IMG/VR virus record: IMGVR_UViG_3300037141_000314
Span: 1 to 64,000 of that record
Direction: 5' to 3' (one strand)
DNA: 64,000 bases
Origin: a virus
This document shows positions 44,435 to 63,345 of this stretch, in pieces. How positions within the stretch are numbered: position 1 is the stretch's first letter; every line of letters begins with the position of its first letter. Under the pieces are notes generated by a model. It was not told where the DNA came from. It made no database searches and saw only the letters and a list, made by a program, of their open reading frames with translations. The position numbers were made by a program, and so were the translations under genes.

Positions 44435-44439
44435 GAGAA

Positions 44440-44731: not shown

Positions 44732-44805
44732 GTCAACGCAGGATTCCGCGCCGGAAGGCTTCCGGCAGCCACGAGACGCAGGACCGAATTAAGAGGACAA
44801 CGACA

Positions 44806-45390: not shown

Positions 45391-45416
45391 GCTGGAGACT
45401 ACTCTGAGGCTCGAAG

Positions 45417-47683: not shown

Positions 47684-47703
47684 AAATTGTTAGGTCAGGT
47701 CGA

Positions 47704-48892: not shown

Positions 48893-49101
48893 GTTCGTTT
48901 CGCGATCTTCTTCGCCGCTTTCGCGCCGATCCGTTTCGCGACTTTCGCAGCTTTCACCGCTGCGGCTGCGGTTTGCCGGATCGACAGCGCGTTGACCGCG
49001 ACGGTGCTAAGTGTGGCGGCGTCGTACCAGCCCCTGCCGATGGCAGGGGCCTCGGTCGCCAGCGCAGCGAGCGCCAGCGAACAGATAAGAAGCCGCCTCA
49101 T
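48889..49101 (-). CDS. Small basic protein with N-terminal signal or anchor
   Basis: 70 residues: MRRLLICSLALAALATEAPA signal-like start and a Lys/Ala-rich end (AVKAAKVAKRIGAKAAKKIA) resembling an amphipathic cationic helix. Could be a membrane-active lysis helper; function not shown. Confidence 0.6.
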   Translation of the reverse strand: MRRLLICSLALAALATEAPAIGRGWYDAATLSTVAVNALSIRQTAAAAVKAAKVAKRIGAKAAKKIAKRT

Positions 49102-49108
49102 GTCGGAG

Positions 49109-49693: not shown

Positions 49694-49869
49694 AAATTTT
49701 TGCGATCACTTACGGACTCGCGGAGCGCAAGCGCTACGACGCTAACCGTCCGCCATGTGTCTCTCATCTCAGGCGGCAGGTTTTCCCACGATGGGTAGAC
49801 ATTTTGCTCGCCCAGCCGCGCTCTCAGCCACGCGCGGAAGAGCTGCTCAGCGTACGCGTCGCTGGTCAC
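49690..49869 (-). CDS. Small hypothetical protein (GTG start)
   Basis: 59 residues from the GTG at 49869, which overlaps the upstream stop as GTGA: TSDAYAEQLFRAWLRARLGE, then PSWENLPPEMRDTWRTV. Helical; a known-looking phage family without function. Confidence 0.6.
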   Translation of the reverse strand: MTSDAYAEQLFRAWLRARLGEQNVYPSWENLPPEMRDTWRTVSVVALALRESVSDRKNL

Positions 49870-50168
49870 GCAGCCGCGGCCATTGCGCGCGAAGTCTCTA
49901 TTTCCCGCAAAGACGCAAAGGTCCGCAAAGCCGGATCCGGCAATGGCTCGGGTTTCTTTGCATCTGCCTTTGCGCCTTGGCGTGAAACCGTGCGCGGGCG
50001 GTAGTTTTCGATGCGCCAGGGGCATTCAATCTGCAGGCGCAGCCATTCGTTAACCTGGCGCAAATCGCGCGCCTCGCGGCAGAGCGCCTCGCGCTGCTCG
50101 TATTCGCGGGCGGCGATCGCCGGGCGGTCGGCATCGTCATGAGGGCCGTCGCTATATTGCCGTGTCAT
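49866..50168 (-). CDS. Hypothetical protein whose C-terminus is made of a dispersed repeat
   Basis: 100 residues. The first 60 (REYEQREALCREARDLRQVN, WLRLQIECPWRIEN) look native; the last 40 (SRQGAKADAKKPEPLPDPAL onward) are encoded by repeat copy C. The repeat kept the frame open and the GTGA coupling to the next gene. Confidence 0.6.
   Translation of the reverse strand: MTRQYSDGPHDDADRPAIAAREYEQREALCREARDLRQVNEWLRLQIECPWRIENYRPRTVSRQGAKADAKKPEPLPDPALRTFASLREIETSRAMAAAA
49901..49988. repeat. Dispersed palindromic repeat, copy C
   Basis: Left arm TTTCCCGCAAAGACGCAAAG, right arm CTTTGCATCTGCCTTTGCGC then TTGGCGTGAAACC; about 88 bp, related to copies A and B. It lies inside a coding sequence. 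Confidence 0.75.
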
Positions 50169-50415
50169 TCGTTGCCCGCAGCCGTTCGATCTCGCTCGCC
50201 ATCGTCGTCACCAGAATCGAGAGCCGTTCGATTTCGCTCGCCATCAGATCGATGCGGTTGTGGATTCCGAGCTTTGCGTAGAGCTTCTGCGCATAAATCT
50301 TGACCGTGCCGTGCGTGAGACCCATCTGGGCGGCGATCTCTTTGCCGATCAGCCGCGTAAACAGCAGCGCCCGCAATTCCACGTGCCAGGGGATGGCGCG
50401 CCGGGGATATCTCAT
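50152..50415 (-). CDS. LuxR-type HTH protein
   Basis: 87 residues. LRALLFTRLIGKEIAAQMGL then THGTVKIYAQKLYAKLGIHN is a GerE/LuxR-type helix-turn-helix; no receiver domain is present. The tail contains MASEIERL twice, a short duplicated coil. ATGA overlap fixes the start. Stand-alone small regulators like this could tune late or host genes. Confidence 0.75.
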   Translation of the reverse strand: MRYPRRAIPWHVELRALLFTRLIGKEIAAQMGLTHGTVKIYAQKLYAKLGIHNRIDLMASEIERLSILVTTMASEIERLRATNDTAI

Positions 50416-50681
50416 TTCGCGGTCGCCCTCACGTCGCTTGCGTACATCGCGTTCGGTCCGACAGGCAGATCTGCGACCCGAACCTGCGGCGCCAACTTTA
50501 GAGCCTCCAGCGCCGCACATTTCCAGGCGCCGCGCACGCCCGGCGACGAGTCTTCGAACGCCAGCGGTTCGAAAAACGGCCCGAAGCGCGAGGCGATGAA
50601 CGCGGTGTAGAGAAATTCCGTGAAGTCGAAAAGCGAGAGGCCTTCGGGCTTCGGAACGGGAATCGGAACGGGAACGGTCAA
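50412..50681 (-). CDS. Hypothetical protein
   Basis: 89 residues: a Pro/Val start (MTVPVPIPVPKPEGL) and a helical middle (FTEFLYTAFIASRFGPFFEP). ATGA overlaps on both sides. No family recognised. Confidence 0.6.
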   Translation of the reverse strand: MTVPVPIPVPKPEGLSLFDFTEFLYTAFIASRFGPFFEPLAFEDSSPGVRGAWKCAALEALKLAPQVRVADLPVGPNAMYASDVRATAK

Positions 50682-51115
50682 GAGCCCACCTGCTCGATGG
50701 TGCCTTCCCAGATGAACTCGCTAAGCGGTCGATGTGTCCCGCAAGAGCAGCAAAATGTCCCGCCGTAGAACTGCGGATCTCTCGCATATGTCTCAGCGAT
50801 CGCGCGATTCATACTGGTGCGCGTGAGGCAGCCTCCGGGAAACGGCTTCACGCCACCGCGAATCGGATATTCAAAGCGGCTGTAGTCAGCCTCCCTGTAA
50901 CGACTATCCATCCCGGAATTGTCATCAACGAGTGGTGGCGCGCCGACATGGATGTACGCCATGCGTACGGGTCGCACGAAGCCTTTCGCGCGCTCTTCTG
51001 CCGTCAGAACGACATATCCCTTTTGCTGGCCGGTCGCGGGGTTGATCTCGCGATGATCCTCTGTGACGGGCGAACCGTCCGTAAGAACGCGCGCGCTTCG
51101 ATCTACTTCGTTCAT
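50678..51115 (-). CDS. Conserved-looking phage hypothetical protein
   Basis: 145 residues. The C-terminal GGCLTRTSMNRAIAETYARD, then FCCSCGTHRPLSEFIWEGT, is a pattern seen in many phages, with a CxC..H zinc-binding look; the N-terminus has TAEERAKGFVRPVRMAYIHV. ATGA overlap with the NusG-like gene. Confidence 0.75.
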   Translation of the reverse strand: MNEVDRSARVLTDGSPVTEDHREINPATGQQKGYVVLTAEERAKGFVRPVRMAYIHVGAPPLVDDNSGMDSRYREADYSRFEYPIRGGVKPFPGGCLTRTSMNRAIAETYARDPQFYGGTFCCSCGTHRPLSEFIWEGTIEQVGS

Positions 51116-51645
51116 GATTTCTTCGCCTTCGGCGCGTCGGCTTTTTTCGCGACGCAGTCTGCGCTTTCGATCTCAACAGGCGTGTCCCTGCCGAAGATCG
51201 GAAGCAATAGCGTGAGAAGCGTGCCGCCTTTGATTCGACTGATCACGGCGGAGCGTCCCGCGAAGTTTCCCTTCGCCACCGTTACCGCCTGGCCCAGAAC
51301 ATATGTCTGCAGCGAGGGGGCAGCGGCGGCGGTTTCGATTACGAGGCGCAAGTCAGCGATCTCGGAATCAGGAATCGAAATAGGAATCTGGTCAGTACTC
51401 AAAATCGTTACAACGCCGCGCGTCCGGCGAATCAGCGGCGCGCTGAGTGGATCAAACCGCGCAAAGATGTATCCCGGGAACAGGGGCCTTGTCGTGACTT
51501 TTTCGCGATCCGACCACTTCACTCGCTCGTCCCACGTCGGCAGAAATTCCTCGACGCCTTCGCCGCGGAGCTGGTCGCGAACGGAAAACTCGAAACGTGA
51601 TCTGGTGACCACACAAAACCAAGCCGGTACCGGTACGGTCAGCAT
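51112..51645 (-). CDS. NusG/RfaH-type transcription antiterminator
   Basis: 177 residues. NGN domain (about 8-105): WFCVVTRSRFEFSVRDQLRG, then LPTWDERVKW and TRPLFPGYIFARFDP. KOW domain (about 117-165): VLGQAVTVAKGNFAGRSAVI. This is the layout of specialised NusG paralogues (RfaH/UpxY/LoaP-like) that ride RNA polymerase and suppress pausing or termination. It is the first gene of the late leftward cluster, coupled by ATGA to the next. The upstream control region appears split by the GIY-YIG insert. Confidence 0.9.
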   Translation of the reverse strand: MLTVPVPAWFCVVTRSRFEFSVRDQLRGEGVEEFLPTWDERVKWSDREKVTTRPLFPGYIFARFDPLSAPLIRRTRGVVTILSTDQIPISIPDSEIADLRLVIETAAAAPSLQTYVLGQAVTVAKGNFAGRSAVISRIKGGTLLTLLLPIFGRDTPVEIESADCVAKKADAPKAKKS

Positions 51646-51692: not shown

Positions 51693-52544
51693 ATGAAGTG
51701 GGTTATCTATACCCTGAAAAACCCGCGCACAAGTGAGGTCCGGTATGTCGGCTGGACTGTACGAGTTCCAGGCAAACGATTGCGTCATCACATCAACGAA
51801 TCGCTCAAGCTTCAGCAAACTCACAAGCAGCGCTGGATTATGTCGCTTTTGAGCATCGGATTGGAACCTGTCATCGACGTAATCGAATCCGGCTCGGGCC
51901 CGGGCTGGCAAGACGCTGAGATTCGCTGGATCGCGTTCTATCGGGCCACTGGATCGTGTCTCACGAACGCCACTGACGGCGGAGACGGACTTCTGGGATG
52001 CCGCGCGTCTGAGGAGCGCAAATCTCGCATTAGAGCGTTCTGGGCAGCTCTTACCCCGGAAGAACGTAAGGCCCGCGCGAAACACGCGCGCGATGAAAGG
52101 ACGGTGGATTCGTTCGCCGCTATAAGTCGCGCAACAAGCGCGTCTATGGCGCTTATGACTCCCGAACAGCGCAGCGCAAACGGGAAAAAAGGATCCGATG
52201 CCATCCCCTTGGAGAAACGCAGCCAGGCTATGGCTGCCCTGATGGCATCTTTTTCCCCCGAACAAAGAACTGAGAATGCGAGAAAAGCAGGCAAGACATC
52301 GCAGGCGAACCATTCCGCCGAGGAACGTCGCGCGCGTATGGCCCACGCCTACGCGAGTCGATCCCGCGAGGAATGCACTGCAACCGCGCTGCGGAATGCA
52401 GCTCAGATGAACGCCGGGCTCACCTACACCCAGAGAAGCGCGGCTCGCAAAAAAGGCTGGGCGGACACGACTCCTGAGGAGCGCAGCGCAATTATTAAAA
52501 GAGGCCACATAACCCGCGCGGCCAATAAGGCAGCGCAAAAGTGA
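51693..52544 (+). CDS. GIY-YIG homing endonuclease with NUMOD3-like repeats
   Basis: 283 residues. WVIYTLKNPRTSEVRYVGWT is the GIY-YIG start (VIY...YVG), followed by RVPGKRLRHHINES (Arg/His) and a Glu-bearing GWQDAEIRWIAFYRATG. From about residue 110 on there are repeated TPEER(K/S)A-type helices (LTPEERKARAKHARDE, MTPEQRSANGKKG, FSPEQRTENARKAGK) like NUMOD3 DNA-binding repeats. Opposite in strand to its neighbours and lying between promoter P1 and the NusG-like gene: a selfish insertion. Confidence 0.9.
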   Translation: MKWVIYTLKNPRTSEVRYVGWTVRVPGKRLRHHINESLKLQQTHKQRWIMSLLSIGLEPVIDVIESGSGPGWQDAEIRWIAFYRATGSCLTNATDGGDGLLGCRASEERKSRIRAFWAALTPEERKARAKHARDERTVDSFAAISRATSASMALMTPEQRSANGKKGSDAIPLEKRSQAMAALMASFSPEQRTENARKAGKTSQANHSAEERRARMAHAYASRSREECTATALRNAAQMNAGLTYTQRSAARKKGWADTTPEERSAIIKRGHITRAANKAAQK

Positions 52545-52603
52545 TGCCGCTACGCGTGGCTGCCTGGCGGCAGCCGTCTCCTGCGGGGGGCAGGCCTCGG
52601 ACG

Positions 52604-52669
52604 TCAGATGCACAAAGTGCCTTCCAGTCCCAGGCGCAGAGCGCATTTGGAAACTTTACTTAGCGGCAA
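52604..52669 (-). pseudogene. 21-codon leaderless reading frame after promoter P1, probably a truncated gene start
   Basis: A TTG lies exactly 6 nt after the GCCGATAA of P1, as in the other three sites, and opens 21 codons (PLSKVSKCALRLGL...) before a stop. The GIY-YIG gene follows, so this is probably the stub of the gene formerly read from P1. Confidence 0.4.
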
Positions 52670-52675
52670 ACTACC

Positions 52676-52706
52676 TTATCGGCGCGCGCCGGGAAATCGT
52701 GCAAAC
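52676..52706 (-). promoter_or_regulatory. Phage sigma-28-like promoter P1
   Basis: Minus strand: GTTTGCACG (52706-52698), 14-nt spacer, GCCGATAA (52683-52676). Reads toward the NusG-like gene and late cluster, from which it is separated by the GIY-YIG insertion. Confidence 0.75.
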
Positions 52707-52716
52707 CGCGCTTCGG

Positions 52717-53058
52717 CTACCCGCGCGGAGTCCGGTCCATCGAATTCCTGATTTCTCTGATGTCCTGCCGAATTTCGTCCAAACGCTGAGAAAGGGCGAG
52801 GAAATCGCCGCGCGTGACCATATTGCTTTCAACGGCAGCAACGCGGCGGTCAATCTCGTCGGCCTTAGTCGCGAGCGATACCGCAGCCCGCGCGTTAACC
52901 GTGCTCTCCGTTTCGAGGAGCGCCACACGGTGTTCCATCGCCTCCACCTTAGTGATCGTGGCGGAGCCGGACCGCGTGGCGCCGAACAGCGCGCCCAGCG
53001 CCATGCCGGCCATCGAAAGAATGGCAGCGAACAGCGGGGATGAAAAGAACGGTTCCAA
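52717..53058 (-). CDS. Membrane-anchored coiled-coil protein (leaderless TTG start)
   Basis: 113 residues. An N-terminal transmembrane helix (FAAILSMAGMALGALFGA) must begin near the TTG at 53058, so no later start is possible. A long coiled coil follows (EAMEHRVALLETESTVNARA, DEIDRRVAAVESNMV). This resembles phage holin-like or lysis accessory proteins. Its TTG lies 6 nt after the -10 of promoter P2. Confidence 0.7.
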   Translation of the reverse strand: MEPFFSSPLFAAILSMAGMALGALFGATRSGSATITKVEAMEHRVALLETESTVNARAAVSLATKADEIDRRVAAVESNMVTRGDFLALSQRLDEIRQDIREIRNSMDRTPRG

Positions 53059-53064
53059 TAGTGG

Positions 53065-53095
53065 TTATCGGCGCGCGGCGGGAAATCGTGCAAAT
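53065..53095 (-). promoter_or_regulatory. Phage sigma-28-like promoter P2
   Basis: Minus strand ATTTGCACG, 14-nt spacer, GCCGATAA; the spacer is nearly identical to P1. Start codon TTG of the membrane coiled-coil gene 6 nt downstream. Confidence 0.8.
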
Positions 53096-53131
53096 GGCGG
53101 AAACGGGGCGGGTTTATTTTCGCGGATTCGA

Positions 53132-53161
53132 TTGACAATAAACAGCAAACGGAGCTAAGCT
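53132..53161 (+). promoter_or_regulatory. Rightward housekeeping-type promoter TTGACA-18-TAAGCT
   Basis: Lies about 40 bp from the divergent late promoter P2 and 55 bases upstream of the ATG at 53216. Confidence 0.6.
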
Positions 53162-53215
53162 GAAGGAGTACTGAATTAGACCAGCCTGGCAACTCCGGGC
53201 GGAGAACAAAAAACG

Positions 53216-53392
53216 ATGTCAGACACGCAGATGATTATCCTGGTCGCCATGCCGCTCCTTGGCATCGCCAGCAACGTAGCACTTTTCCTTTACATAGCGA
53301 GCCGGGTCGACAAACTGGCGGATAAGGTCGGCACGCTTACCGACCGCGTTACGCGCCTCGAAGAGCACGGCCCGAAGCTGGTGACCGCGTAG
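53216..53392 (+). CDS. Small membrane coiled-coil protein
   Basis: 58 residues: MIILVAMPLLGIASNVALFL membrane helix followed by YIASRVDKLADKVGTLTDRV coil. Ribosome site GGCGGAG before the ATG. Short analogue of the protein on the other strand at 52717-53058. Confidence 0.65.
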   Translation: MSDTQMIILVAMPLLGIASNVALFLYIASRVDKLADKVGTLTDRVTRLEEHGPKLVTA

Positions 53393-53463
53393 GCAAAGGC
53401 AGGGCGCGGCCTTCGCGCCATTTTTTATTCGACCAGCGCGGCATTCCGCGCGGAGGAAAAACG

Positions 53464-53679
53464 ATGACAAATGAGATTGTGGTTTACGCTTACACGGCTA
53501 ACGGGCGTGAGATACGCGAAGTGGAAATCGGCGGGCGTACGCTCTACCGCGTCCAGCCGAAAAACGACAACTACTGGCTCTGGTGCCGTACTGCGCATGC
53601 CGCGCTCCAGGCCTTTTACGCGCCGGGACGGTTTCGTGCCGCGTCGGATCGACTTGCGGCGTGGGTGGCGAAGCAATGA
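53464..53679 (+). CDS. Small hypothetical early protein
   Basis: 71 residues: MTNEIVVYAYTANGREIREV, beta-rich, then WCRTAHAALQAFYAPGRFRA. Excellent ribosome site (GGAGGAAAAA). Unknown. Confidence 0.7.
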   Translation: MTNEIVVYAYTANGREIREVEIGGRTLYRVQPKNDNYWLWCRTAHAALQAFYAPGRFRAASDRLAAWVAKQ

Positions 53680-53747
53680 TGTATATTTTCCGGGGCCGTC
53701 CCCGGACCACATGGAAGCTATGTGCCGTTCTCTTTTGCGACGCGTAG
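53676..53747 (+). CDS. Possible 23-codon minigene
   Basis: ATGATG overlaps the preceding stop by 4 nt and opens 23 codons (MMYIFRGRPRTTWKL...). The frame contains a 7-bp GC-rich hairpin (53689-53706, TCCGGGG/CCCCGGA). Coupling is the only support. Confidence 0.3.
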   Translation: MMYIFRGRPRTTWKLCAVLFCDA

Positions 53748-53835
53748 TCATGCAGTTTTTCCCGACCTTACCGGATCGGGCCTCATGAAAGCTGTTTCAG
53801 TACTTGGCTGCTTAAGTCGCTATTTTGCAACACTT

Positions 53836-53859
53836 CCGGGGATCAGAGATGATCCCCGG
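53836..53859. promoter_or_regulatory. 9-bp hairpin just before a start codon
   Basis: CCGGGGATC and GATCCCCGG pair around a 6-nt loop, ending 14 bases before the ATG at 53874, which has no clear ribosome site. Could control translation or mark an attenuator; no T tract. Confidence 0.5.
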
Positions 53860-53873
53860 CCTCAAAAACTAAT

Positions 53874-54122
53874 ATGAAAATCACCGTTATCATAACGAAG
53901 GATAAGCAGCCGCGATCTTTCAGGTGGGGCATTCGCGCTGGCGTGAACCAACCGAATGAACTGGGATTGTCGCGCGCTGAAGCCAACCCCGGTAAAGCGC
54001 GACGGGCTGCGGAAAGACTCTTCGGACCGCTCGAATGGATCGACGCGTCCGAAGTCGCCGACGAAAGAAATTCCTACGTGATCGAGTGCGCCAGAGTGGA
54101 GGCCTATGCCGCAGCAGACTAA
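53874..54122 (+). CDS. Small hypothetical protein
   Basis: 82 residues: MKITVIITKDKQPRSFRWGI, then ARRAAERLFGPLEWIDASEV. Alpha/beta, unknown; overlaps the next gene by 17 nt. Confidence 0.65.
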   Translation: MKITVIITKDKQPRSFRWGIRAGVNQPNELGLSRAEANPGKARRAAERLFGPLEWIDASEVADERNSYVIECARVEAYAAAD

Positions 54123-54267
54123 ACCCCTATCCGCGATCCGCCGCGCCGCCGCCGCAAAACGGAAAACGTTTGGCGCCGGCAGCGGCCGTCCAGCGATCGC
54201 GGACCGCTGCCCGTGCGGATCGATGACGCGGGCGCGGGCGGAAAAACGCCGGCACGTGTGCGGGTGA
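54106..54267 (+). CDS. Small zinc-knuckle protein
   Basis: 53 residues; the C-terminus RCPCGSMTRARAEKRRHVCG (CxC...HxC) is a pattern seen in small phage proteins. Basic N-terminal half, probably nucleic-acid binding. Confidence 0.7.
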   Translation: MPQQTKPLSAIRRAAAAKRKTFGAGSGRPAIADRCPCGSMTRARAEKRRHVCG

Positions 54268-54299
54268 AACGTCGCGCGAAATCGGAGTAAACTAGGCGC

Positions 54300-54674
54300 A
54301 TGCACGGTCTAGCAAGCATCACCCTCCCCTCTGCCAACTCCCTCGTTCGCGGCGCGCTGACTAATCTCCAGAACACGTCGAACGAAGCGCTCCGCTCGAT
54401 CCCCGACAAGGCGGATCAGCTTATCTACTTTCAGGCCATACAGCAATGGGGCGCGGCGGGCTCGAAAGTGCCTGTCGGCATCACCCTCCCCATAGGCAAT
54501 CTCCCGGTCCGGGGCGCGCTGAATAACATTCAGACGACGTCGACGGAATCGCTTGTCACAATGACCGAGAAGACAGACCAGCTCGTTTACTTCCAGGCCA
54601 TCGAGCATTGGGGAGCGACGAACTGCAAATCGCTCAGCGCGCAGGGCGCGAAGACACACGGCGCGGCGGGCTAA
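54300..54674 (+). CDS. Protein built of two tandem copies of a 60-residue unit
   Basis: 124 residues. Copy 1 ITLPSANSLVRGALTNLQNT ... DQLIYFQAIQQWGA and copy 2 ITLPIGNLPVRGALNNIQTT ... DQLVYFQAIEHWGA align throughout about 60 residues. DNA of the copies has diverged, so selection has kept the protein. No known family; divides the two early segments, convergent with 54696-55058. Confidence 0.65.
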   Translation: MHGLASITLPSANSLVRGALTNLQNTSNEALRSIPDKADQLIYFQAIQQWGAAGSKVPVGITLPIGNLPVRGALNNIQTTSTESLVTMTEKTDQLVYFQAIEHWGATNCKSLSAQGAKTHGAAG

Positions 54675-54695
54675 AGCGCCGGCATCAGTGCGCGG

Positions 54696-55058
54696 TCAAA
54701 CTTGGCTAAATGCCAACCGGGGCAGGCGCGGCGTCGACCAACTCCACGAATTTACGGTGGACTGAGCTTCCCGCATCTTCACCTGGCGCTGAACCTCGGC
54801 GTCGACTTCTTCGGCTTCGCCGTTCGCAATCGCCTGTAGCCCGGCGATCAGCGCGCGGCGTTCGGCCATGCCGCCGAACTCGGCCGACGCGAATCGCGCC
54901 AGTAGCTTTTGGGCTACACGCAGGTTCAGCTTCAGGATGCCGGCCAGCGTCTTGGCGTCGACGACCACGGCGGGGCGGCCGGACGAACCAGACGTAAGGC
55001 GCTTCAGCGCCTCGATTCCGGCGGGAAGTCGTACAATCCATTCAGATTTGCGCGCCAC
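54696..55058 (-). CDS. Hypothetical protein, possible regulator
   Basis: 120 residues: SEWIVRLPAGIEALKRLTSG, then DAKTLAGILKLNLRVAQKLL, helices and a low-quality tail. Divergent from the 55.2-57.4 kb operon across the repeat-rich control region, the usual place for a repressor, but no clear HTH is seen. Confidence 0.6.
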   Translation of the reverse strand: MARKSEWIVRLPAGIEALKRLTSGSSGRPAVVVDAKTLAGILKLNLRVAQKLLARFASAEFGGMAERRALIAGLQAIANGEAEEVDAEVQRQVKMREAQSTVNSWSWSTPRLPRLAFSQV

Positions 55059-55082
55059 GCGGCAACCTCCCTTTATCCTCTA

Positions 55083-55103
55083 CGTTCGTTCGCGAAACGA
55101 ACG
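55083..55103. promoter_or_regulatory. Inverted repeat CGTTCGTT-5-AACGAACG
   Basis: Perfect 8-bp arms around CGCGA, between the divergent genes 54696-55058 and 55222; likely an operator. Confidence 0.6.
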
Positions 55104-55125
55104 AATCGACCGATTGTACCTTGGG

Positions 55126-55174
55126 TTGCAACACCTTGCAAGAGGTTGCAGATATAACTTGCAAGGCACTGCAA
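55126..55174. repeat. Array of five TTGCAA-type hexamers
   Basis: Hexamers start at 55126, 55136, 55146, 55159 and 55169 (TTGCAA, TTGCAA, TTGCAG, TTGCAA, CTGCAA), spacing 10, 10, 13, 10, i.e. mostly one helical turn. The fourth is also the -35 box of the promoter. Three more occur at 55902-55940 inside the HTH gene. Confidence 0.7.
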
Positions 55175-55187
55175 CCCTCGCTATACT
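55159..55187 (+). promoter_or_regulatory. Rightward early promoter TTGCAA-17-TATACT
   Basis: Good -10 and spacing; reads into the operon from 55222. The -35 belongs to the TTGCAA array, so the array protein would act at the promoter. Confidence 0.7.
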
Positions 55188-55221
55188 CGCAGTCGATAAC
55201 CTGCGCGGGATATCGCGGATC

Positions 55222-55347
55222 GTGAACTTCCTGCTTCACGAGGCGCCGATCAAATCGTGGGGATCCGAGGCAGCGGTTCAGGCCTGGATCAATGCCGCCG
55301 CGGAGCGCGAGCGGCTGCTCCGCGAAGCGCCGGCGGTGAACGTATGA
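55222..55347 (+). CDS. Small protein, first gene of the right early operon (GTG start)
   Basis: 41 residues: NFLLHEAPIKSWGSEAAVQA, then AAERERLLREAPAVNV. Its TGA overlaps the next ATG (ATGA). Short but well placed behind the promoter; start could be slightly different. Confidence 0.5.
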   Translation: MNFLLHEAPIKSWGSEAAVQAWINAAAERERLLREAPAVNV

Positions 55348-55574
55348 TCGCCGTGGCGGCAAAGACCGCAACCCCGGTCCACTTCGCGCCCGGCGATCGT
55401 GTGCGTATGTCCGCGACGAACAGCATCTGGAGCCGGCGAAGTGGAACGGTGGTTGCCCGGGTCGTGTCTAACGACACTCTACTTAGAGTGCGCTGGGACG
55501 GCACTAAGCATGAGCGCACGGTCGCGGAGGCGCGGCTGAAGAAAAGCTATCAGGAGGATCCATGCCGGAAGTGA
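55344..55574 (+). CDS. Small SH3-like protein
   Basis: 76 residues: VHFAPGDRVRMSATNSIWSR, GTVVARVVSNDTLLRVRWDG, a beta-barrel pattern like KOW/SH3 domains. Basic C-terminus. Nucleic-acid or protein binding inferred. Overlaps the next gene by 13 nt. Confidence 0.65.
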   Translation: MIAVAAKTATPVHFAPGDRVRMSATNSIWSRRSGTVVARVVSNDTLLRVRWDGTKHERTVAEARLKKSYQEDPCRK

Positions 55575-55897
55575 AGCACAAAATTGAAAAGCGCCCCGAA
55601 CCGAAGCGAGATCTATCGGGCGAGATCCGCTGCCGCGTCTGCGGATGCACCGAGACGTTCGCCTGCAATCCGCCGTGCGGCTGGACGCCAGGCGAAGAAG
55701 ACCTGTGCACGAACTGCGCCGCAACCGTTCAGGTTATGGCCGTGTGGAACGAAGGCGCGCGGCGCGCCAACGTGTCGGCTCTGTTGCGCGAATATCGCCG
55801 GGAAATAAATCTTCCACAGGCCGCTCGAAGCCCGGAATTGAACGGTCTGTTCCGCAGCGAAACGCGCGCGGGAGAAGGGAAGCATGCCCGAGCCTGA
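55562..55897 (+). CDS. Cys-rich zinc-binding-like protein
   Basis: 111 residues with IRCRVCGCTETFACNPPCGW and EEDLCTNCAAT; shares the CxxCGCT..AC..CxW..CxxC signature with 2181-2399. The second half is helical (AVWNEGARRANVSALLREYR). Overlaps the next gene by 14 nt. Confidence 0.7.
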   Translation: MPEVKHKIEKRPEPKRDLSGEIRCRVCGCTETFACNPPCGWTPGEEDLCTNCAATVQVMAVWNEGARRANVSALLREYRREINLPQAARSPELNGLFRSETRAGEGKHARA

Positions 55898-56480
55898 AGC
55901 CTTGCAGCAACCCGCTGCAACCGACAACAACCCATTGCAACCCGACGCCGCGGCGCTCACCAAGCCGGAGGTCTGCGAGCTGCTCGGCAAGTCCGAGCGC
56001 ACCGTGAACACGTACATGAAAAGCCACCGCCTTCCGTCCCGCCTCATCGGCGGCAAGGCGGTCTTCGAACGCGGCAACGTCGAGCGCCTGAAAGCCGATC
56101 TCGAAACGCCGATTGTGCGCGGGGTGCCGATACTGTCCGGAATGGCAGTATCGCCCGCGGTATCAAATGATGCCGGCAACAGACCGGCAATGGACGGGCA
56201 AGATCCTGGCAACGGCGCGCTCGCCGTTATCGATTCCGGAACGATGACGACGTTCGCGCGATTCGCGGATGCGATCGCCGCGGCGGTTCGGCCGGCGGTG
56301 GCGCCTCCTCCACCGCCGGCGCTGCAGCAGTGGAAGACGCTGAAGGAGGCGGCCGAGTATTCAGGATTGCCGCCGCGGTGGCTGGCGAAGCAGGCTAAGG
56401 CGGGTGCGCCGTGGGCGATGAACGTGGGCACTGAGAAAACGCCGGACTGGCGGTTTCGGATCGCGGGAGGTGTGAAGTGA
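55884..56480 (+). CDS. DNA-binding protein with two excisionase-like HTHs
   Basis: 198 residues. First HTH (about 30-75): TKPEVCELLGKSERTVNTYM, then RLIGGKAVFERGNVERL, the MerR/excisionase-type pattern. A second similar HTH near 155-180: WKTLKEAAEYSGLPPRWLAK. Between them a Pro-rich linker. Its own 5' end carries TTGCAG/CTGCAA/TTGCAA repeats like those at the operon promoter, so autoregulation or replication-origin binding is possible. Confidence 0.75.
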   Translation: MPEPEALQQPAATDNNPLQPDAAALTKPEVCELLGKSERTVNTYMKSHRLPSRLIGGKAVFERGNVERLKADLETPIVRGVPILSGMAVSPAVSNDAGNRPAMDGQDPGNGALAVIDSGTMTTFARFADAIAAAVRPAVAPPPPPALQQWKTLKEAAEYSGLPPRWLAKQAKAGAPWAMNVGTEKTPDWRFRIAGGVK

Positions 56481-56746
56481 AGCGAACGCAGCTGCAGCCC
56501 TTTACCGGATGGCTCCCAAAATGGGTCAAGGATTTACTGATGCGCCTCGGCGTCGGCGACTGCCTCATTGAATATTGCAATGAGTGTGGAAGGCTTCAGC
56601 CGCTCGTCTGGTGGTGTCGCGATAACGCTCTTTGGCGCGAGGTAAACGGCGGCTCCGAAGGCGGCGCGCTCTGCCCGGCGTGCTTCAATATGCGCGCCAG
56701 TAAACTCGGCCACTTCATCCGGTGGTATCCGGAGGCCTCCGCATGA
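56477..56746 (+). CDS. Small zinc-finger-like protein
   Basis: 89 residues with EYCNECGRLQPLVWWCRDN and GALCPACFNMRASKLG, two CxxC pairs. ATGA overlaps on both sides. Unknown function. Confidence 0.65.
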   Translation: MKRTQLQPFTGWLPKWVKDLLMRLGVGDCLIEYCNECGRLQPLVWWCRDNALWREVNGGSEGGALCPACFNMRASKLGHFIRWYPEASA

Positions 56747-57168
56747 ACCCCGCGTTCCGGCCGCCGCCCGATTCGACGCGCCGCGAGGCGGAGGCGACGA
56801 TTCGCGACTCTGGTCCGAAGTGCCCGTTTTACGGCGCATCGATTCACTGGGGCAGACTGATCGTCGTCGGGCGAAACGTCAACGAGGCGTATCTACCGAG
56901 CAACCAATGCGCACTGATAACCTCCGCGCACTCACCCTGCTGGATGGAAGTCGGTGAATCGCGGCCGCCCGACTGGGCGGCGTGCCCGCGCAATCCGGAA
57001 TTCGCGGCGCCTGGAATTCTCTGCCAGGTTCCTGTGGGCCAGCTCAGTGTTATAGGTCGAGTAATCATGCAGGCGACGGAGTTGGTACGGTTAACGCGCA
57101 AGCGGGACGCGGCCGAGTTGGAAGGAGAACACGGCCCGCGCGGCCGCTGCGGAGGCGGCATCGAATGA
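56743..57168 (+). CDS. Hypothetical early protein
   Basis: 141 residues starting MNPAFRPPPDSTRREAEATI. Middle reads RLIVVGRNVNEAYLPSNQCA then SAHSPCWMEVGESRPPDWAA with several Cys, suggesting metal binding. The C-terminal 40 residues are helical. ATGA overlaps at both ends. Confidence 0.65.
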   Translation: MNPAFRPPPDSTRREAEATIRDSGPKCPFYGASIHWGRLIVVGRNVNEAYLPSNQCALITSAHSPCWMEVGESRPPDWAACPRNPEFAAPGILCQVPVGQLSVIGRVIMQATELVRLTRKRDAAELEGEHGPRGRCGGGIE

Positions 57169-57392
57169 ACTTCCGCCAGAACCTCGACACGATCAACCGC
57201 CTCCTGAACCATCCCGACATCACGGGAATGGGCGGCTACTCGCTCGGCGTGATCTCGTCGCTCGCGGAGCAGGAAGGCGTCGTCGCGCCCGACGTGCTGC
57301 TTGAGGTCGGGGCGCAATGCCAGACGGTTGAGGCGGCGGTTGCGCTGTATAAGGCCTGGCGGAGGCCTCCATATGTTGCTCGGGAAGTCTGA
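57165..57392 (+). CDS. Small helical protein, end of the right early operon
   Basis: 75 residues: MNFRQNLDTINRLLNHPDIT, then SLGVISSLAEQEGVVAPDVL. Followed by a terminator. Unknown function. Confidence 0.65.
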   Translation: MNFRQNLDTINRLLNHPDITGMGGYSLGVISSLAEQEGVVAPDVLLEVGAQCQTVEAAVALYKAWRRPPYVAREV

Positions 57393-57417
57393 GCGCGGCA
57401 CTCGCCGAAAACGCAGA

Positions 57418-57445
57418 AAGGCCCGCCGGGTATCCAGCGGGCCTT
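57418..57445. terminator. Bidirectional terminator between convergent genes
   Basis: AAGGCCCGC and GCGGGCCTT form a perfect 9-bp stem around a 10-nt loop, between the rightward early operon and the leftward gene ending at 57470. Short T runs only. Confidence 0.7.
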
Positions 57446-57469
57446 CGCGCTTAGCAGATCCGCGGCGCT

Positions 57470-57904
57470 TTACGGGGTGGACGCCACGACCGGAACTACC
57501 GGAATCGGGGCTCCCCCAGGAGGCGGCGGTACCGCGGGCGATGCCGGATTGGACGAGAGGACGCCGGCCGCGCTTGTGTTGTTGGCGGCCAGCGCATTTG
57601 TCGCGTTTTCAAGGGCGGAAAGATCGAGGACCGGGTTTGCCGCCTGCAGAGTAGCGATTTCCGCGTTCATCGTCGCGATGTTGGTGGTGTCGGCCGCCAC
57701 CAGAGTTTCGAGGTTCTGAAGAACCAAAGTGTTGAGGCCCACCGCTGTGGTGAGGGCCGCGACGTCGGTTACAAATTGCGCGTTGGAAGACATAAGCTTT
57801 GCTCCTTGAATGACGAGTTTATTGACTGCCACCAGGACTTCGGCGAGCGTGAGCTGGAGGCCCTCGACCTCTGCGAGCGTTGCGTAATTGACAGTGACAG
57901 TCAT
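57470..57904 (-). CDS. Tail-associated-type helical protein
   Basis: 144 residues from MTVTVNYATLAEVEGLQLTL. Repeating helical pattern (FVTDVAALTTAVGLNTLVLQ, NIATMNAEIATLQAANPV) and a Pro-rich end. Such coiled proteins with Thr/Asn/Ala repeats occur near phage tail genes; role not known. Confidence 0.6.
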   Translation of the reverse strand: MTVTVNYATLAEVEGLQLTLAEVLVAVNKLVIQGAKLMSSNAQFVTDVAALTTAVGLNTLVLQNLETLVAADTTNIATMNAEIATLQAANPVLDLSALENATNALAANNTSAAGVLSSNPASPAVPPPPGGAPIPVVPVVASTP

Positions 57905-57938
57905 CAGCCTCAAGTATGCGGCCAACCGACAATAAGTG

Positions 57939-58625
57939 ATGAAGCTTTTTTTGTTTGTAATATTGGCGGCCGCTTCCGCGTTCGCTCAGACCAAGCCCGC
58001 GGTTCCGGCGCTCCCGAAGCTTTACACCTATTACCTTCTGCCCGGCGCCGGCGCATATGCGTGGCTCTCGGTCGTAGTTGATGCGACGCTGACTCTCTCG
58101 GTTGACTCGACCGGGCAGGCCCACATTGGCGCAGCAAGCCAGCAGGGCACCGCGGGACCAGCTGGCGCAACCGGGCCGCAGGGCCCTCCCGGGCCGGCCG
58201 GACCGGCGGCCTCGGCCGGGCCTCCGGGCGTGCCAGGTCCGTCAGGCGCGACGGGAGCACCCGGAGCTCCGGGTGCACTCGCTATCCAAAGCGGCGGCAA
58301 AGCGATCGGCACCGCGACGACGCTCGATATCGAGCCCGGGATCGGTACGGTGTGCGTTCCGCAGCTCAACCCCGACAATGGCGTGATGACCCTTCAGTGC
58401 TCGTCCGACACCGCGATCATAGCGTTTCGCGTTCCGGCGCCCGTTTATGCTTCCAGCACGCCGGTGGTGCAACATCCCTGTGTGGATCCGGTGACGAGCT
58501 CGCCCTATAGCGCGAGCACGTGGGCCGCAGACGCCTCGTACTTTTATACGTGCGTCCCAAGTACTCCTGCGACCGTGCCGGTTTCGTTCGTCTGGTCGCG
58601 CGCTCCAGTGACTACGGGCTGGTGA
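57939..58625 (+). CDS. Secreted collagen-like protein
   Basis: 228 residues. MKLFLFVILAAASAFAQT is a Sec signal. A Gly-X-Y block (GPAGATGPQGPPGPAGPAAS, GPPGVPGPSGATGAPGAPGA) of about 20 triplets follows an N-terminal beta domain (YTYYLLPGAGAYAWLSVVVD). C-terminal globular part with four Cys. Collagen-like shafts are known in phage fibres; a signal peptide would send it to the envelope instead. Confidence 0.75.
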   Translation: MKLFLFVILAAASAFAQTKPAVPALPKLYTYYLLPGAGAYAWLSVVVDATLTLSVDSTGQAHIGAASQQGTAGPAGATGPQGPPGPAGPAASAGPPGVPGPSGATGAPGAPGALAIQSGGKAIGTATTLDIEPGIGTVCVPQLNPDNGVMTLQCSSDTAIIAFRVPAPVYASSTPVVQHPCVDPVTSSPYSASTWAADASYFYTCVPSTPATVPVSFVWSRAPVTTGW

Positions 58626-61600
58626 CGTAGAGCGGGACGTTCTCACCGGGCATCATCACCGCGCCCGATGCGTCGAGATAGTCCAGCTCCATCAGCACGG
58701 ATCCGGATCGCCTGTCGACCGATACCTCGCATGGTGAAACAGGGCACACCGTGGTCACCGCTTTTCCGGTCGCGGCCGTAATAGTTACCTGCGCCTGCGC
58801 GGCGCCAGTTTCCTCAACAGTGAACGGGATCATCACCGTGGCCGGATCCGGTGGATCCACACCGCCGAGGCGAACCGCCGGCCAGCGCCAGGCCGCGCCC
58901 ATCCCGAAGAAGAAGCCGGGCCACTTTCCGTTTGCCAGGCTGGCGTCTGACAGATTTGTCGGAGCGAGGTTGGTTGCGTCGGACGCTGGATCGGAGTACG
59001 CGCCCGCGGCGTCGAAGGCCGGGTTGCCGAACACGGCACCATACATCTGATCGCCCCACGCCAGGTTGGCCGCGGTCGGGCTGGCGATGTATAGCTCAGA
59101 AATCGCGTTGGCGATCTCGGCGTTTTGCTCGCGGCCGACCGACATGCTGTCCTTGCTCCCTGTGGTGTAATTGCAGCCCGGCGACTTGGCGCTGAATGAG
59201 GCGGAGGACGACGGCGGGTTGACTGGCGAGCACAGCTGATATCCGACGCCGTAGTTAGTGGTGAGGGACGCGATGTCGGTTCCAACATCGTGCAGCCAGT
59301 GAGCAATCCCGCTGCTGAGCTTCTGGTAGAAAGAGGCGACGGCGGCAAGCGCAGGATCGGTGACGCGGGAAAGAAACCCGGTGCCGAGCGCGCGAACTCC
59401 CAAATAGAACGGCTGCACTCCGGTGCCCACGACGTTGCTCAGGTTGCCGACATAGGTGGATCCGGTTGCACCGGGCCACGCGTGATCGAGGGTCAGGGTG
59501 CCGTCGGCGTTCGCTATGCAGTTGAAGCCGTGGCTAAGATTCGCAGTATCGTTATTGTCGGTCCCGAATGTCAGCATATTCGTGCTGCCGTTATTTGTGC
59601 TCGTGCTCATCCAGCTCACCGTGCCCGAGTCATACGGCCACAGGACCGCCAGATTTCCATTCGCCGCCATAAATTGCGAAGCGAACGGAGCGCCGCCCGA
59701 TACGCCGGCCAGCGTCAGCGCGTCAAAGCCGGACGACGGAAACGGCGTGCTGCCGGCCGTCACAGTGATCACTGAACTGCCATGCACGACCGTGGCGAAG
59801 CCCTGCGCGGTTCCGATGCAAGCTGCTGCCGGAAGGCCACCAGGAGCACTCACAGTCGTCGAGCCATTCGTCAGTGTGAGCGGGCCGAAGCCTCCGTTGT
59901 ATCCGAGGCCTCCGCCGCGGCTTCCCGACGGATTGAATAAGTAAGAGTTCGTGAAGCTGTTGTCTGCCGTCTTGCAGGCCGCGTCGTTGGCCGCCATCTG
60001 CACAATGTCTTTTTGCCAGCGCGCCCGCCAGATCGGATCCGGATCATAAGTTCCGGCATAGCCAACCCACTCATAAGCGTATCCGGTGTTGCGCTGGTCG
60101 TACACATTGCAGCCCGAGGTCGCTGTCGTGTTGACGTACTCCTCGCCCTGCTCCGCGTAACTGCGGAGGCTCGCCCAGCTTGGCGCACCGTCCGATCCGA
60201 GGATCGCGGCGAAGAAACTTCCAATCACCGGGCCGCCGGTAACGAGCGGGGCGTAACCGTTGCCGATCGGATTTCCCCACGGCGAGTTGAGGAGGCAGCA
60301 GTCAATCAGGTCTGCGGCGTTTTTCGCCTCGTCCAGACCGGAGCGGAAGTACAAAGAGCGCGCCATGGTGTTCTCTGCATAGAAAAACGTGCCCGCGATC
60401 GCAGCGTTGGCGAAGAAGCCTTCGTTGGCCGCGTTGGCGTCAAAGCTGTACTGGCGGCCGGTCTGCGGCAGCGCGTCGAGCAGGGTAATATCGTGCGCGC
60501 CATTCACGGGATCGATGTAGAGCGTCGTTGGGCTCTCGCATCCCGTCACAAACCAGAACCACTCGCCGATGCCGGCTGTGTCCACGGTAAGGTTCGCACG
60601 AAGATCGATGCGTGCTGCAGCGCCTGGCGAGGCACCCTTCGGGCAAACCGCGGCGTTGGGATCGTTTAAGAAGTCAGTTCCAACGCCCGTGACTTTGAAC
60701 TGACCAACCATCGAACCAGCCGACCACGCTGCGGCTGGCTCAGATCCGGCGCAGATCGCCAGTATGTTTGGAGTCGGGATTGTCTGGGCGCAGATACGGA
60801 CCTCCGTCTCGGCGCCGCCATTGAACAACAGGATTCTTGTCGGCAGGGTGCTGAGGTCGATGCACGCTGCATTTGTCACCACTACGAACATCGACCCGGC
60901 TGGCACATCGGCAGCCAGCCCGTTCGGGCAGGACTTGTCGCCCAGCGGCGTGCCTGTGCCGTCCCACGTATAGCTCACGGTCCCAGCTCCCACCTTTTCC
61001 CACCTGCTCGAATTGCCAAGCCAGCCGGCCGCCTGATACGCGGGCACGCGCAAATCGAGAGCGCGCTTATTAAGCCTGTCCGCAGAGCCCCACGGAATTT
61101 TGCCCCACGTCATCATGTCGCCGTACAGAGCCGTTACATTCGGGTCAGCCGGGATCACGATGCCCTTCGAATCCTGAGCCACCGCGCCAACGTCGACCGC
61201 GGTTGTGGTGCAGGCGCTGGTGTTGTCACACACGGTCAATGCAATCCGGTAGTCGCCGAAGATTACGCCAGTGGGCGCGGGCGTTCCGGACGTCAGTGAA
61301 TCCCAGAAGAGCCGCGACGGGCCCGAGAGTTGTTTCCACGCCCACGTGACCGCGGCCGACGTATCGGACTGGGAGTAGCTGGACGTGCCATCGAGCGGCA
61401 TCGGAAAACCCGCGCGGGCCGTCGTTACATCGGCCCAGCTTCTCCAGTTGCTTTTGATCGAGGCGTAAGGCGCCAGGACAGGCGTCGGCACATAAGTCGG
61501 AATAAATACCCCAGGTGACCCGTAGGCATAGTTGGCAGGGTAGTTGCCGCCGCATGAATCACTCAGGTCGCCCTCGAACTTCCACTCGAACACGCAGCTC

Positions 61601-62157
61601 GCGTCTTGGCTGAAGGTGACCGGCGCGCGGGAATTCATCGGGACCAGAGTCGAGAGTACTCGCATGAAGGCAACGTTCACGACCGGCTCGTTTCCGTAGC
61701 CCATGACGAGGCCGCTTCCGGTGTTGGTCTCCGTCGTGTATGGCACAGAGACCGCGTAGAAGCGGCTGCCGTTGCTCCAGCCCTCATACTCATCGGCCTT
61801 AGCTATGACGTTGTGCTGCGCGCGCACGCTGACGTCTGTCATGCCGTCGACCGGGATGAACGAGCCGAGGCCGTCATCCCACGTGTTACGGAGTGACACC
61901 CCTTCGCCGACGCCGGTCTGGTTAGCAAGATAGGCAACCCACCCAGTGGCACCCTGGTACGTCGGCCAGACCCCGGTGCCTGCTATCAGGTGAGTGTAGC
62001 TGTTCGGCGTCCAGTCGTGAATGCGAAACTCCACGCGGTTGTTGATGGTCAGCCGGATCGCGGTGTTCGAAATCGTCTGTGGTCCGTACTGGATGCTCTG
62101 GCCGGCGAAAGCCGGCAGCGCGAGCGCGGCGAAAAAGCAAGCGAGGGTTTTGTTCAC
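58612..62157 (-). CDS. Large secreted protein of unknown function (leaderless GTG start)
   Basis: 1181 residues. MNKTLACFFAALALPAFAGQ is a Sec signal beginning at the GTG at 62157, 6 nt after the -10 of promoter P3. Segments resemble beta-sandwich domains (SDTSAAVTWAWKQLSGPSRL, a PKD-like pattern) and a helical middle with YEWVGYAGTYDPDPIWRARW followed by a beta-rich end (CEVSVDRRSGSVLMELDYLD). Could be a receptor-binding, hydrolytic or host-modifying protein. Ends overlap the collagen-like gene by 14 bases. Confidence 0.75.
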   Translation of the reverse strand: MNKTLACFFAALALPAFAGQSIQYGPQTISNTAIRLTINNRVEFRIHDWTPNSYTHLIAGTGVWPTYQGATGWVAYLANQTGVGEGVSLRNTWDDGLGSFIPVDGMTDVSVRAQHNVIAKADEYEGWSNGSRFYAVSVPYTTETNTGSGLVMGYGNEPVVNVAFMRVLSTLVPMNSRAPVTFSQDASCVFEWKFEGDLSDSCGGNYPANYAYGSPGVFIPTYVPTPVLAPYASIKSNWRSWADVTTARAGFPMPLDGTSSYSQSDTSAAVTWAWKQLSGPSRLFWDSLTSGTPAPTGVIFGDYRIALTVCDNTSACTTTAVDVGAVAQDSKGIVIPADPNVTALYGDMMTWGKIPWGSADRLNKRALDLRVPAYQAAGWLGNSSRWEKVGAGTVSYTWDGTGTPLGDKSCPNGLAADVPAGSMFVVVTNAACIDLSTLPTRILLFNGGAETEVRICAQTIPTPNILAICAGSEPAAAWSAGSMVGQFKVTGVGTDFLNDPNAAVCPKGASPGAAARIDLRANLTVDTAGIGEWFWFVTGCESPTTLYIDPVNGAHDITLLDALPQTGRQYSFDANAANEGFFANAAIAGTFFYAENTMARSLYFRSGLDEAKNAADLIDCCLLNSPWGNPIGNGYAPLVTGGPVIGSFFAAILGSDGAPSWASLRSYAEQGEEYVNTTATSGCNVYDQRNTGYAYEWVGYAGTYDPDPIWRARWQKDIVQMAANDAACKTADNSFTNSYLFNPSGSRGGGLGYNGGFGPLTLTNGSTTVSAPGGLPAAACIGTAQGFATVVHGSSVITVTAGSTPFPSSGFDALTLAGVSGGAPFASQFMAANGNLAVLWPYDSGTVSWMSTSTNNGSTNMLTFGTDNNDTANLSHGFNCIANADGTLTLDHAWPGATGSTYVGNLSNVVGTGVQPFYLGVRALGTGFLSRVTDPALAAVASFYQKLSSGIAHWLHDVGTDIASLTTNYGVGYQLCSPVNPPSSSASFSAKSPGCNYTTGSKDSMSVGREQNAEIANAISELYIASPTAANLAWGDQMYGAVFGNPAFDAAGAYSDPASDATNLAPTNLSDASLANGKWPGFFFGMGAAWRWPAVRLGGVDPPDPATVMIPFTVEETGAAQAQVTITAATGKAVTTVCPVSPCEVSVDRRSGSVLMELDYLDASGAVMMPGENVPLYVTSP

Positions 62158-62163
62158 GCTTGT

Positions 62164-62194
62164 TAATCGGCGCGCGGGCGGGAAACGTGCAAAC
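62164..62194 (-). promoter_or_regulatory. Phage sigma-28-like promoter P3
   Basis: Minus strand GTTTGCACG, 14-nt spacer, GCCGATTA; GTG start 6 nt downstream. Confidence 0.8.
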
Positions 62195-62283
62195 AGTCAA
62201 GTAGACTTTACTTGCGGTCGGTGCTGGACTCATTAAACCGAGAGATGGTGAATGGGACGGAATCCAGCATCGGCCCGTTTTTC

Positions 62284-62736
62284 CTACGCCGCCTTTTTCG
62301 CCGGCGTTCCGCGTTCGTAGCTCGAAACGCTGCGGGAACCGGTTTGCGCGACCGAGGTGACACTGGCTGCCACGTCGGGGGAGGTATAGAGCGCCAGATC
62401 CTTCAGCGTCGTCTTCGCAAATGTGCCGAAGAGTTTGATTCCTATTTTTTTGATCAGCGCCACGATGTCGACGGTGCTGACGTTGCTGCGCGGTCCGATC
62501 AGCACAGTGAAACGATCACCCGACGCTTCGAAGCCGCGGGTTGCATCGGCATCGTCGTACATACCGCGCGCCCATTCGCGAAGACTCGCCTGGCGGGTCA
62601 GTTTCGATTTAAGCGGCGCGAAAAACTGGTCTAATTCGCCCAGCTCGTCCAGATTCTTTTTGCGATCCGCTTCGAGCGCGGCCGCGGGCGATACGGAAAT
62701 AGGAACTACTTTGCTGGTTTGGGTGGGTTTGGGCAC
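62284..62736 (-). CDS. In-frame second protein from an internal GTG
   Basis: 150 residues from the GTG at 62736 (residue 204 of the sigma frame), 6 nt after promoter P4: PKPTQTSKVVPISVSPAAAL, ANLDELGELDQFF-like helix, then GDRFTVLIGPRSNVSTVDIV and a C-terminal SVAQTGSRSV. I recall related stand-alone phage proteins; function unknown. May be made alone, or as the tail of the sigma factor. Confidence 0.6.
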   Translation of the reverse strand: MPKPTQTSKVVPISVSPAAALEADRKKNLDELGELDQFFAPLKSKLTRQASLREWARGMYDDADATRGFEASGDRFTVLIGPRSNVSTVDIVALIKKIGIKLFGTFAKTTLKDLALYTSPDVAASVTSVAQTGSRSVSSYERGTPAKKAA

Positions 62737-63345
62737 ACTACTATATCGGCGCGGGGTTGCCCGACCGTGCAAACCGAGGTGCCTTTGTATTTCCGTGATC
62801 GCAGCGTCGTGCTCGAAAAACACCATCCGCAGCGACATACAGAGCTCCTCGGCGATCGCCGGCATCGTCATCTCGGCCGAGCCGTAGCGCATGGAGAGAA
62901 TACACCGCCGATCGGCAGTGAGCCATGTGGCGGCCTCCGCAATCCGGCACAGCTGGTCTCGGCGTTCCGCCTGAGCGGCCTGCGTTGGCGCACAGGCGGG
63001 CAGGGGCACGCCGTCGCTCTCGTCCGCGGTACGGAACGGTAGGCACGTATTGGCGGTCCAGTGGCGCCGCCGGACGGATTCGAGCATCGCGCCGCGGATC
63101 CGCGTGTGCGCAAACGTTGAAAACGAGGCGCGGGTAGAGCCCGGGGTGGGGTGCGCCGCCGAGTCATATCGCTTGGCGGCGTGGAGCAGGCCAATCACGC
63201 CTTCCTGCACGAGGTCATCGATAGGGAATGAAGGTGGCAGGCTACGGCTCAGGCTGCGGCTCAGGCTGCGGGCGATATGGCGGACGAGGGGAAGGTGCGC
63301 GTCGACAAGTTCAGCCTGGCGTGATGTGCTGTTTTTCACTGCCAT
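62284..63345 (-). CDS. FliA/WhiG-type RNA polymerase sigma factor with C-terminal extra domain
   Basis: 353 residues. Region 2 (about 12-100): LVDAHLPLVRHIARSLSRSL, PIDDLVQEGVIGLLHAAKRY, FSTFAHTRIRGAMLESVRRR, the sigma-28 signature. Region 4 (about 143-190): LTADRRCILSMRYGSAEMTM then AIAEELCMSLRM. Region 3 is short. After residue 200 an unrelated domain follows in the same frame (next entry). A 12-bp tandem repeat encodes SLSRSLSRSL. Divergent from the repressor gene, 13 bases apart. Probably directs late promoters P1-P4. Confidence 0.85.
   Translation of the reverse strand: MAVKNSTSRQAELVDAHLPLVRHIARSLSRSLSRSLPPSFPIDDLVQEGVIGLLHAAKRYDSAAHPTPGSTRASFSTFAHTRIRGAMLESVRRRHWTANTCLPFRTADESDGVPLPACAPTQAAQAERRDQLCRIAEAATWLTADRRCILSMRYGSAEMTMPAIAEELCMSLRMVFFEHDAAITEIQRHLGLHGRATPRRYSSVPKPTQTSKVVPISVSPAAALEADRKKNLDELGELDQFFAPLKSKLTRQASLREWARGMYDDADATRGFEASGDRFTVLIGPRSNVSTVDIVALIKKIGIKLFGTFAKTTLKDLALYTSPDVAASVTSVAQTGSRSVSSYERGTPAKKAA
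62743..62774 (-). promoter_or_regulatory. Phage sigma-28-like promoter P4, inside the sigma frame
   Basis: Minus strand GTTTGCACG, 15-nt spacer, GCCGATAT; GTG start 6 nt downstream. Confidence 0.7.

Follow-up and report, generated by a model that had tools for sequence, protein, structure and literature searches.

T4, through gp55, and SPO1, through gp28 and gp33-34, are phages whose sigma factors have late promoters of their own. Here we consider a candidate system of this kind in a 64,000-nt stretch of viral DNA (the window, part of the 67,455-bp virus record IMGVR_UViG_3300037141_000314), in which an initial annotation had noticed a gene for a FliA-type sigma factor together with four similar minus-strand sites that it took to be late promoters. 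As would be the case for this phage, gp47 of phage 7-11, a late-promoter sigma factor with the consensus GTAAtg-16-aCTA (PMC8948821), and gp36 of phiEco32 direct host RNA polymerase to dedicated late-gene promoters. The sigma factors and consensus sequences of phage 7-11, phiEco32, T4 and SPO1 are, however, unlike FliA and GCCGATAA, the -10 octamer at issue here, and in the open-licence literature we found no phage FliA-type sigma factor with mapped promoters. Late transcription by phage sigma factors is established, and it is the combination described below that is new. Few of these sigma factors have known promoters, and predicting their specificities is difficult.

Sigma-28 promoters follow the consensus TAAAGTTT-n11-GCCGATAA, and at the mapped sigma-28 promoter of aer the RNA begins 6 bp past the octamer, with changes in the -35 TAAA strongly reducing activity (PMC2859248). 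For the elongation step, the NusG paralog LoaP is found with the dfn RNA hairpin in a 5' leader (PMC12691694) and RfaH works with the ops leader element (PMC7593976). The present locus resembles those of LoaP, UpxY and RfaH in that a NusG paralog goes with a structured leader at the 5' end of a long operon. Its leader, however, is larger, has several arms and would run from about +1, and the gene for the NusG paralog is carried by a phage, within the operon concerned. The putL RNA of phage HK022, as this leader would, folds at the extreme 5' end of a phage transcript, with pairs beginning at nt 3 (PMC9378689). The put RNAs, in contrast, span ~70 nt with two stem-loops, need no dedicated protein factor and serve early genes (PMC9378689), and we found no likeness between the phage leader and HK022 put RNA. 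The phage 7-11 account (PMC8948821) describes no NusG paralog, folded leader or leaderless late mRNAs.

The explanation that we favor, and regard as fairly probable, combines a private promoter set of this tailed phage, read by its own sigma factor, with antitermination through the NusG paralog and the leader. The sigma factor, made early or on induction, would bind host core RNA polymerase and bring it to sites 1–4, reading GTTTGCACG as the -35 and GCCGATAA as the -10 element. Three of the promoters would give leaderless mRNAs, their 5' ends no more than 1 nt from a GTG or TTG start codon, and site 1 would start a late operon of ~40 kb (NusG paralog, lysis, packaging, head and tail), with the first ~125 nt of its transcript forming a compactly folded RNA. 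As a product of this operon, the NusG paralog would be recruited via the leader RNA or its DNA and would most likely turn the polymerase termination-resistant for the length of the operon. Taken separately, the initiation part, from the phage sigma factor to the four sites, seems quite probable, and the chances of antitermination through the leader RNA are evenly poised. We put forward only tentatively, with more doubt than trust, the full coupled switch of a FliA-derived sigma factor that lacks region 3 and has its own -35 specificity, an RNA-loaded NusG paralog and leaderless late mRNAs.

The four sites and their start-codon register

The coordinates, the strand and the spacers of 14, 14, 14 and 15 nt given for the four sites in the initial annotation all proved correct in the sequence (Table 1). 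On the minus strand of the whole record there are four occurrences of the pattern TTTGCACG-N12..17-GCCGATWW, the plus strand has none, and the reversed-pattern control gives no match. The half-sites taken singly are common (16 and 5 in the window); their joint occurrence expected from these counts is 0.0014, and none of 300 third-order Markov genomes contained the pattern. A matrix scan of the whole record, of the kind proposed in the initial annotation, bears the sites out as well, since they score 34.5, 33.6, 33.4 and 32.7 bits with the next best site at 15.8. As training set for the matrix we used the four sites plus two from a related contig, L015, so that the gap in score is partly built in by construction, yet the exact-pattern counts point the same way. 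GCCGAT is identical at all sites and GCCGATAA itself is present at two of the four, while the spacer sequence TTTCCCGGCGCGC is well conserved in five of the six sites of the window and L015.

It had been claimed that GCCGATAA is a sigma-28 -10 box, and it is in fact the exact octamer of the published consensus (PMC2859248). With the octamer set at -13 to -6 in aer numbering, TTTGCACG spans -35 to -28; the GCACG within it (-32 to -28) occupies exactly the place of TAAAG in sigma-28 promoters. The geometry is thus that of sigma-28 with other bases, and the earlier suggestion of a changed -35 specificity is a sensible one. Changed contacts of sigma region 4 would, we infer, account for the different -35 bases. 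Relative to the FliA/sigma-28 promoters (PMC2859248), the -10 octamer, the predicted distance to the RNA start and the place of the -35 element are the same, whereas here TTTGCACG lies at -35 to -28 and there TAAAGTTT lies at -32 to -25; the -35 arrangement of the present sites is TTTGCACG-n14/15, and TAAAGTTT with its n11 spacer is absent.

Every octamer is followed by six nucleotides and then by TTG (sites 1 and 2) or GTG (sites 3 and 4), a regularity that was missing from the initial annotation, as was the in-frame position of the site 4 codon inside the sigma open reading frame (ORF). The register is kept at nt 7 past the octamer in six of six sites of two phages, against a background frequency of 3.7% for these codons. 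At site 1 the TTG opens no long frame. Because aer RNA begins 6 bp past the octamer, the start codons would be located at +1 or +2, and from this we infer leaderless mRNAs for the holin-like and fiber-like genes as well as for the 3' portion of the sigma ORF. None of these three starts has a good Shine-Dalgarno sequence, which is unsurprising since the promoter occupies that place; several other phage genes also have none. Leaderless late genes bound to one promoter class would be unusual.

The sites stand ahead of late genes with few occurrences elsewhere, the exception being site 4, and they are very probably promoters. Their position ahead of the lysis, packaging and structural operon and of the fiber gene, the conservation in L015 and the start-codon register lead us to read them as late-gene promoters. 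The late role that had been proposed for all of them is supported by context for sites 1–3 and by L015 conservation for sites 1 and 2, and does not extend to site 4, which would drive the 3' part of the sigma ORF and no classical late gene.

A scan of IMG/VR for the exact motif gave matches in 62 contigs, a number that by our estimate chance explains, and L015 (6,057 bp) has two sites. The single matches in 62 + 29 IMG/VR contigs are close to chance level and are without the start-codon register, leaving L015 as the only relative among them; L069–L071 and L100–L102 were rejected as relatives, being chance matches in near-identical copies of one coding stretch. The first site of L015 leads to TTG GAA in the corresponding position, the opening of a 130-aa counterpart of the holin-like protein, whose own start is the same; the second L015 site leads to TTG CCG, as does site 1 of the window. 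L015 is syntenic with the window (NusG-family protein, lipase, M15 endolysin and terminase) and retains the two sites, the nt-7 register, the leader and the NusG gene.

Table 1. Features of the window discussed in the text, with positions in the window.
Feature	Position	Strand	Description
Candidate promoter site 1	52676..52706	-	GTTTGCACG-N14-GCCGATAA; head of main late operon; L015 counterpart at 854-883
Candidate promoter site 2	53065..53095	-	ATTTGCACG-N14-GCCGATAA; L015 counterpart at 417-446
Candidate promoter site 3	62164..62194	-	GTTTGCACG-N14-GCCGATTA; ahead of fiber-like gene
Candidate promoter site 4	62743..62774	-	GTTTGCACG-N15-GCCGATAT; within sigma ORF
Sigma factor ORF	62284..63345	-	353 aa; FliA-like region 2 at aa 13-97; weak region 4 at ~aa 134-191
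Sigma ORF, C-terminal 150 aa	62284..62736	-	in-frame GTG at 7th nt after site 4
Holin-like membrane protein	52717..53058	-	113 aa; TTG, first start, at 7th nt after site 2
Fiber-like large protein	58612..62157	-	1181 aa; GTG, first possible start, at 7th nt after site 3
Predicted folded 5' leader RNA	52545..52669	-	~125 nt; starts at TTG 7 nt after site 1
NusG-family antiterminator	51112..51645	-	PF02357; first conserved gene after leader
Late operon, first part	42476..50787	-	small genes, class 3 lipase, M15 endolysin, ParB-methyltransferase, small and large terminase
Late operon, rest	12615..41710	-	portal, major capsid, tape measure, tail proteins
Inserted ORF	51693..52544	+	separates leader from NusG gene; by eye, NUMOD-like repeats and a GIY-YIG-like N-terminus

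Sigma factor, leader RNA and NusG paralog

The ORF in which an RIRGAM-type region 2 had been recognized is indeed a sigma factor gene, with a Sigma70_r2 match at E=7.8e-15. The best match in the PDB is region 2 of FliA (E=2.2e-13, aa 8-99), the FliA subfamily of NCBIfam is matched at E=1.2e-19, and region 2 is 45% identical to that of flagellar FliA over 95 aa. The broad sigma-70 model TIGR02937 is passed with 63.7 bits (cut-off 42.9), whereas the FliA/WhiG model TIGR02479 gives 70.2 bits, below its cut-off of 189.6; region 4 has weak matches only, at aa 134-194. The assignment to the sigma-28 family therefore stands for the FliA-type region 2 and not for the protein as a whole, which, unlike FliA, is without a detectable region 3. 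In an alignment with E. coli FliA, where D81, R84 and R91 are the residues we take to recognize GCCG, the phage protein keeps R84 and has E in place of D81. An AlphaFold model made without an alignment was poor (mean pLDDT 42.8) and was set aside.

The C-terminal 150 aa of the sigma ORF have no family match and may be an extra sigma domain, or site 4 may express them as a separate protein. The sigma gene is divergent from a gene for an XRE-type regulator in 63346-63673 with little space between, and there is a palindrome, GTAGCCCGGACGCTAC, near the start, so that a repressor may control the sigma factor.

The NusG paralog, the folded leader and the leaderless design are points that the initial annotation did not contain. 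Downstream of site 1 the DNA of the leader is ~75% identical between the window and L015 over ~125 nt, without a common reading frame. Both leaders fold better than shuffled sequences (z of -4.2 and -2.8 in the two phages), with a common outline of a long arm and a short hairpin, closed off by a stem between the 5' UGCCGC and the terminal GCGGCA. The fold of the two-sequence alignment reaches -37.3 kcal/mol, compared to -21.2 +/- 3.6 kcal/mol for column shuffles, none of which (0/300) was as low, and the two single folds have 26 pairs in common vs. a shuffle mean of 1.4, with compensatory changes at two pairs.

The NusG domain is matched by PF02357 at E=4.8e-18 and the protein is 73% identical to that of L015. 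It stays below the subfamily cut-offs of UpxY (88 of 100 bits), RfaH (73 of 144.5) and LoaP (40.5 of 125), so that it differs from all three in this respect also. Given the precedents of LoaP with its hairpin (PMC12691694), RfaH with ops (PMC7593976) and the put RNA (PMC9378689), processive antitermination would be the likeliest use of such a paralog and leader. Neither the whole-record pattern search nor the matrix scan found a further copy of the promoter motif in 12615..41710. The ORF inserted between the leader and the NusG gene is absent from L015, where the NusG start comes ~14 nt past the leader, and is probably a homing endonuclease gene that splits the head of the late operon. A terminator-like hairpin is located within it at 52523-52503 (minus strand).

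Weighing the alternatives

It is important to consider whether the sites could be read by something other than the phage sigma factor. A host sigma factor, FliA-like or of the ECF type, might use them, and the phage sigma factor might then have different promoters or a different role. As a host-type sigma-28 box the -10 octamer is perfect (PMC2859248), and the phage sigma factor is linked with the sites only indirectly. We nevertheless consider this unlikely, as TAAA, which sigma-28 promoters need and the alteration of which strongly lowers aer activity (PMC2859248), is absent from the -35 region of all sites, and as the phage has a sigma factor of its own and every copy of the motif is located at its late genes, one of them inside the sigma gene. 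It is also quite unlikely that the motif marks sites of a phage activator or repressor over weak host sigma-70 promoters (TTGCAC-17-CGATAA or TTGCAC-18-GATAA). TTGCAC is indeed spaced from the -10 region as in sigma-70 promoters, the conservation of the TTTCCCGGCGCGC spacer goes beyond the needs of a sigma factor alone, and the XRE-type regulator gene adjoins the sigma gene; against this, the hexamers are poor sigma-70 matches, the invariant GCC ahead of GAT is unexplained by sigma-70, and a sigma-70 consensus scan picks none of the sites, for which reason we rejected the sigma-70 reading of them. A role of the motif as repeated DNA in replication, packaging or recombination, with an accidental place ahead of start codons, is very improbable: sites 1 and 2 do make up a direct repeat (35 nt, 389 nt apart), but the copies are found at separate loci rather than at one origin, and the uniform strand and the constant 7-nt distance to GTG or TTG in two phages led us to reject such a function.

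For the second step alone there is a stronger contender, only a little short of an even chance, in which the NusG paralog is loaded at some other place and the leader is a plain stable 5' UTR or the coding sequence of a short peptide. The TTG frame of L015 stays open into the NusG gene, and the fold is backed by two sequences. The window frame, in contrast, ends after 21 codons, an indel between the leaders breaks the frame, the mismatches (11, 12 and 16 by codon position) show no concentration at third positions and the common pairing is above that of shuffles.

Several observations weigh against the private promoter set with leader-dependent antitermination. Regions 2 and 4 of the sigma factor are only ~35 aa apart vs. 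~90 in FliA, so that region 3 appears to be absent. The R91 of E. coli FliA, presumably responsible for recognizing the upstream GC, is N in the phage protein. Searches of IMG/VR and of phage records found no homologue of the sigma factor, so that co-occurrence of sigma factor and motif cannot be demonstrated; L015 spans just 6 kb, which limits that comparison, and the sigma gene is absent from the 27 kb of a second related contig, G001. With two sequences, the evidence for the fold is moderate; the closing stem in L015 has ~50% pairing probability, a rival register competing with it, and an Rfam search with the leader returned no family match.

Should the phage nevertheless use its own promoters and leader as proposed, sigma switching in the style of T4 and SPO1 and RNA-guided antitermination in the style of put and LoaP would be joined in one phage. 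The sigma factor and the four candidate promoters, plus two in the relative, form a sequence pair that is directly testable in vitro. Were the part played by NusG and the leader to prove true, late initiation and late elongation would both be under phage factors, and the leader would be a new RNA element that loads a NusG paralog.

Related contigs and neighboring genes

G001 was found via the lipase and covers the region from lipase to tail with up to 84% identity to the window; its 27 kb, which exclude the promoter region, contain no strong promoter site. Searches of genome contigs with the NusG alignment and with the long motif found nothing, and the portal and a large tail protein have distant or no relatives among known phages.

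The class 3 lipase gene (47865-48650, minus strand), in the lysis stretch, is 70-84% conserved among three related contigs, and at 45417-46856 (minus strand) the packaging and lysis stretch encodes a DNA methyltransferase fused to a ParB-like domain. The ORF at 50152-50787 (minus strand) has a LuxR/GerE helix-turn-helix match (E=1.5e-7); its GerE/phrog_3282 match was considered as a second sigma factor and rejected, as a different frame is the best conserved there in L015. The N-terminus of the fiber-like protein resembles a signal peptide. Beside the fiber-like gene, on the opposite strand, 57936-58625 (plus strand) encodes a collagen-like Gly-X-Y protein with a signal-peptide-like start. Finally, a stretch of ~60 nt has copies at 20337-20391 and 20052-20115, where the plus strand encodes a Tat-signal-like MNRRDFLALAAIAP start, and has a counterpart in G001 (97% and 84%).

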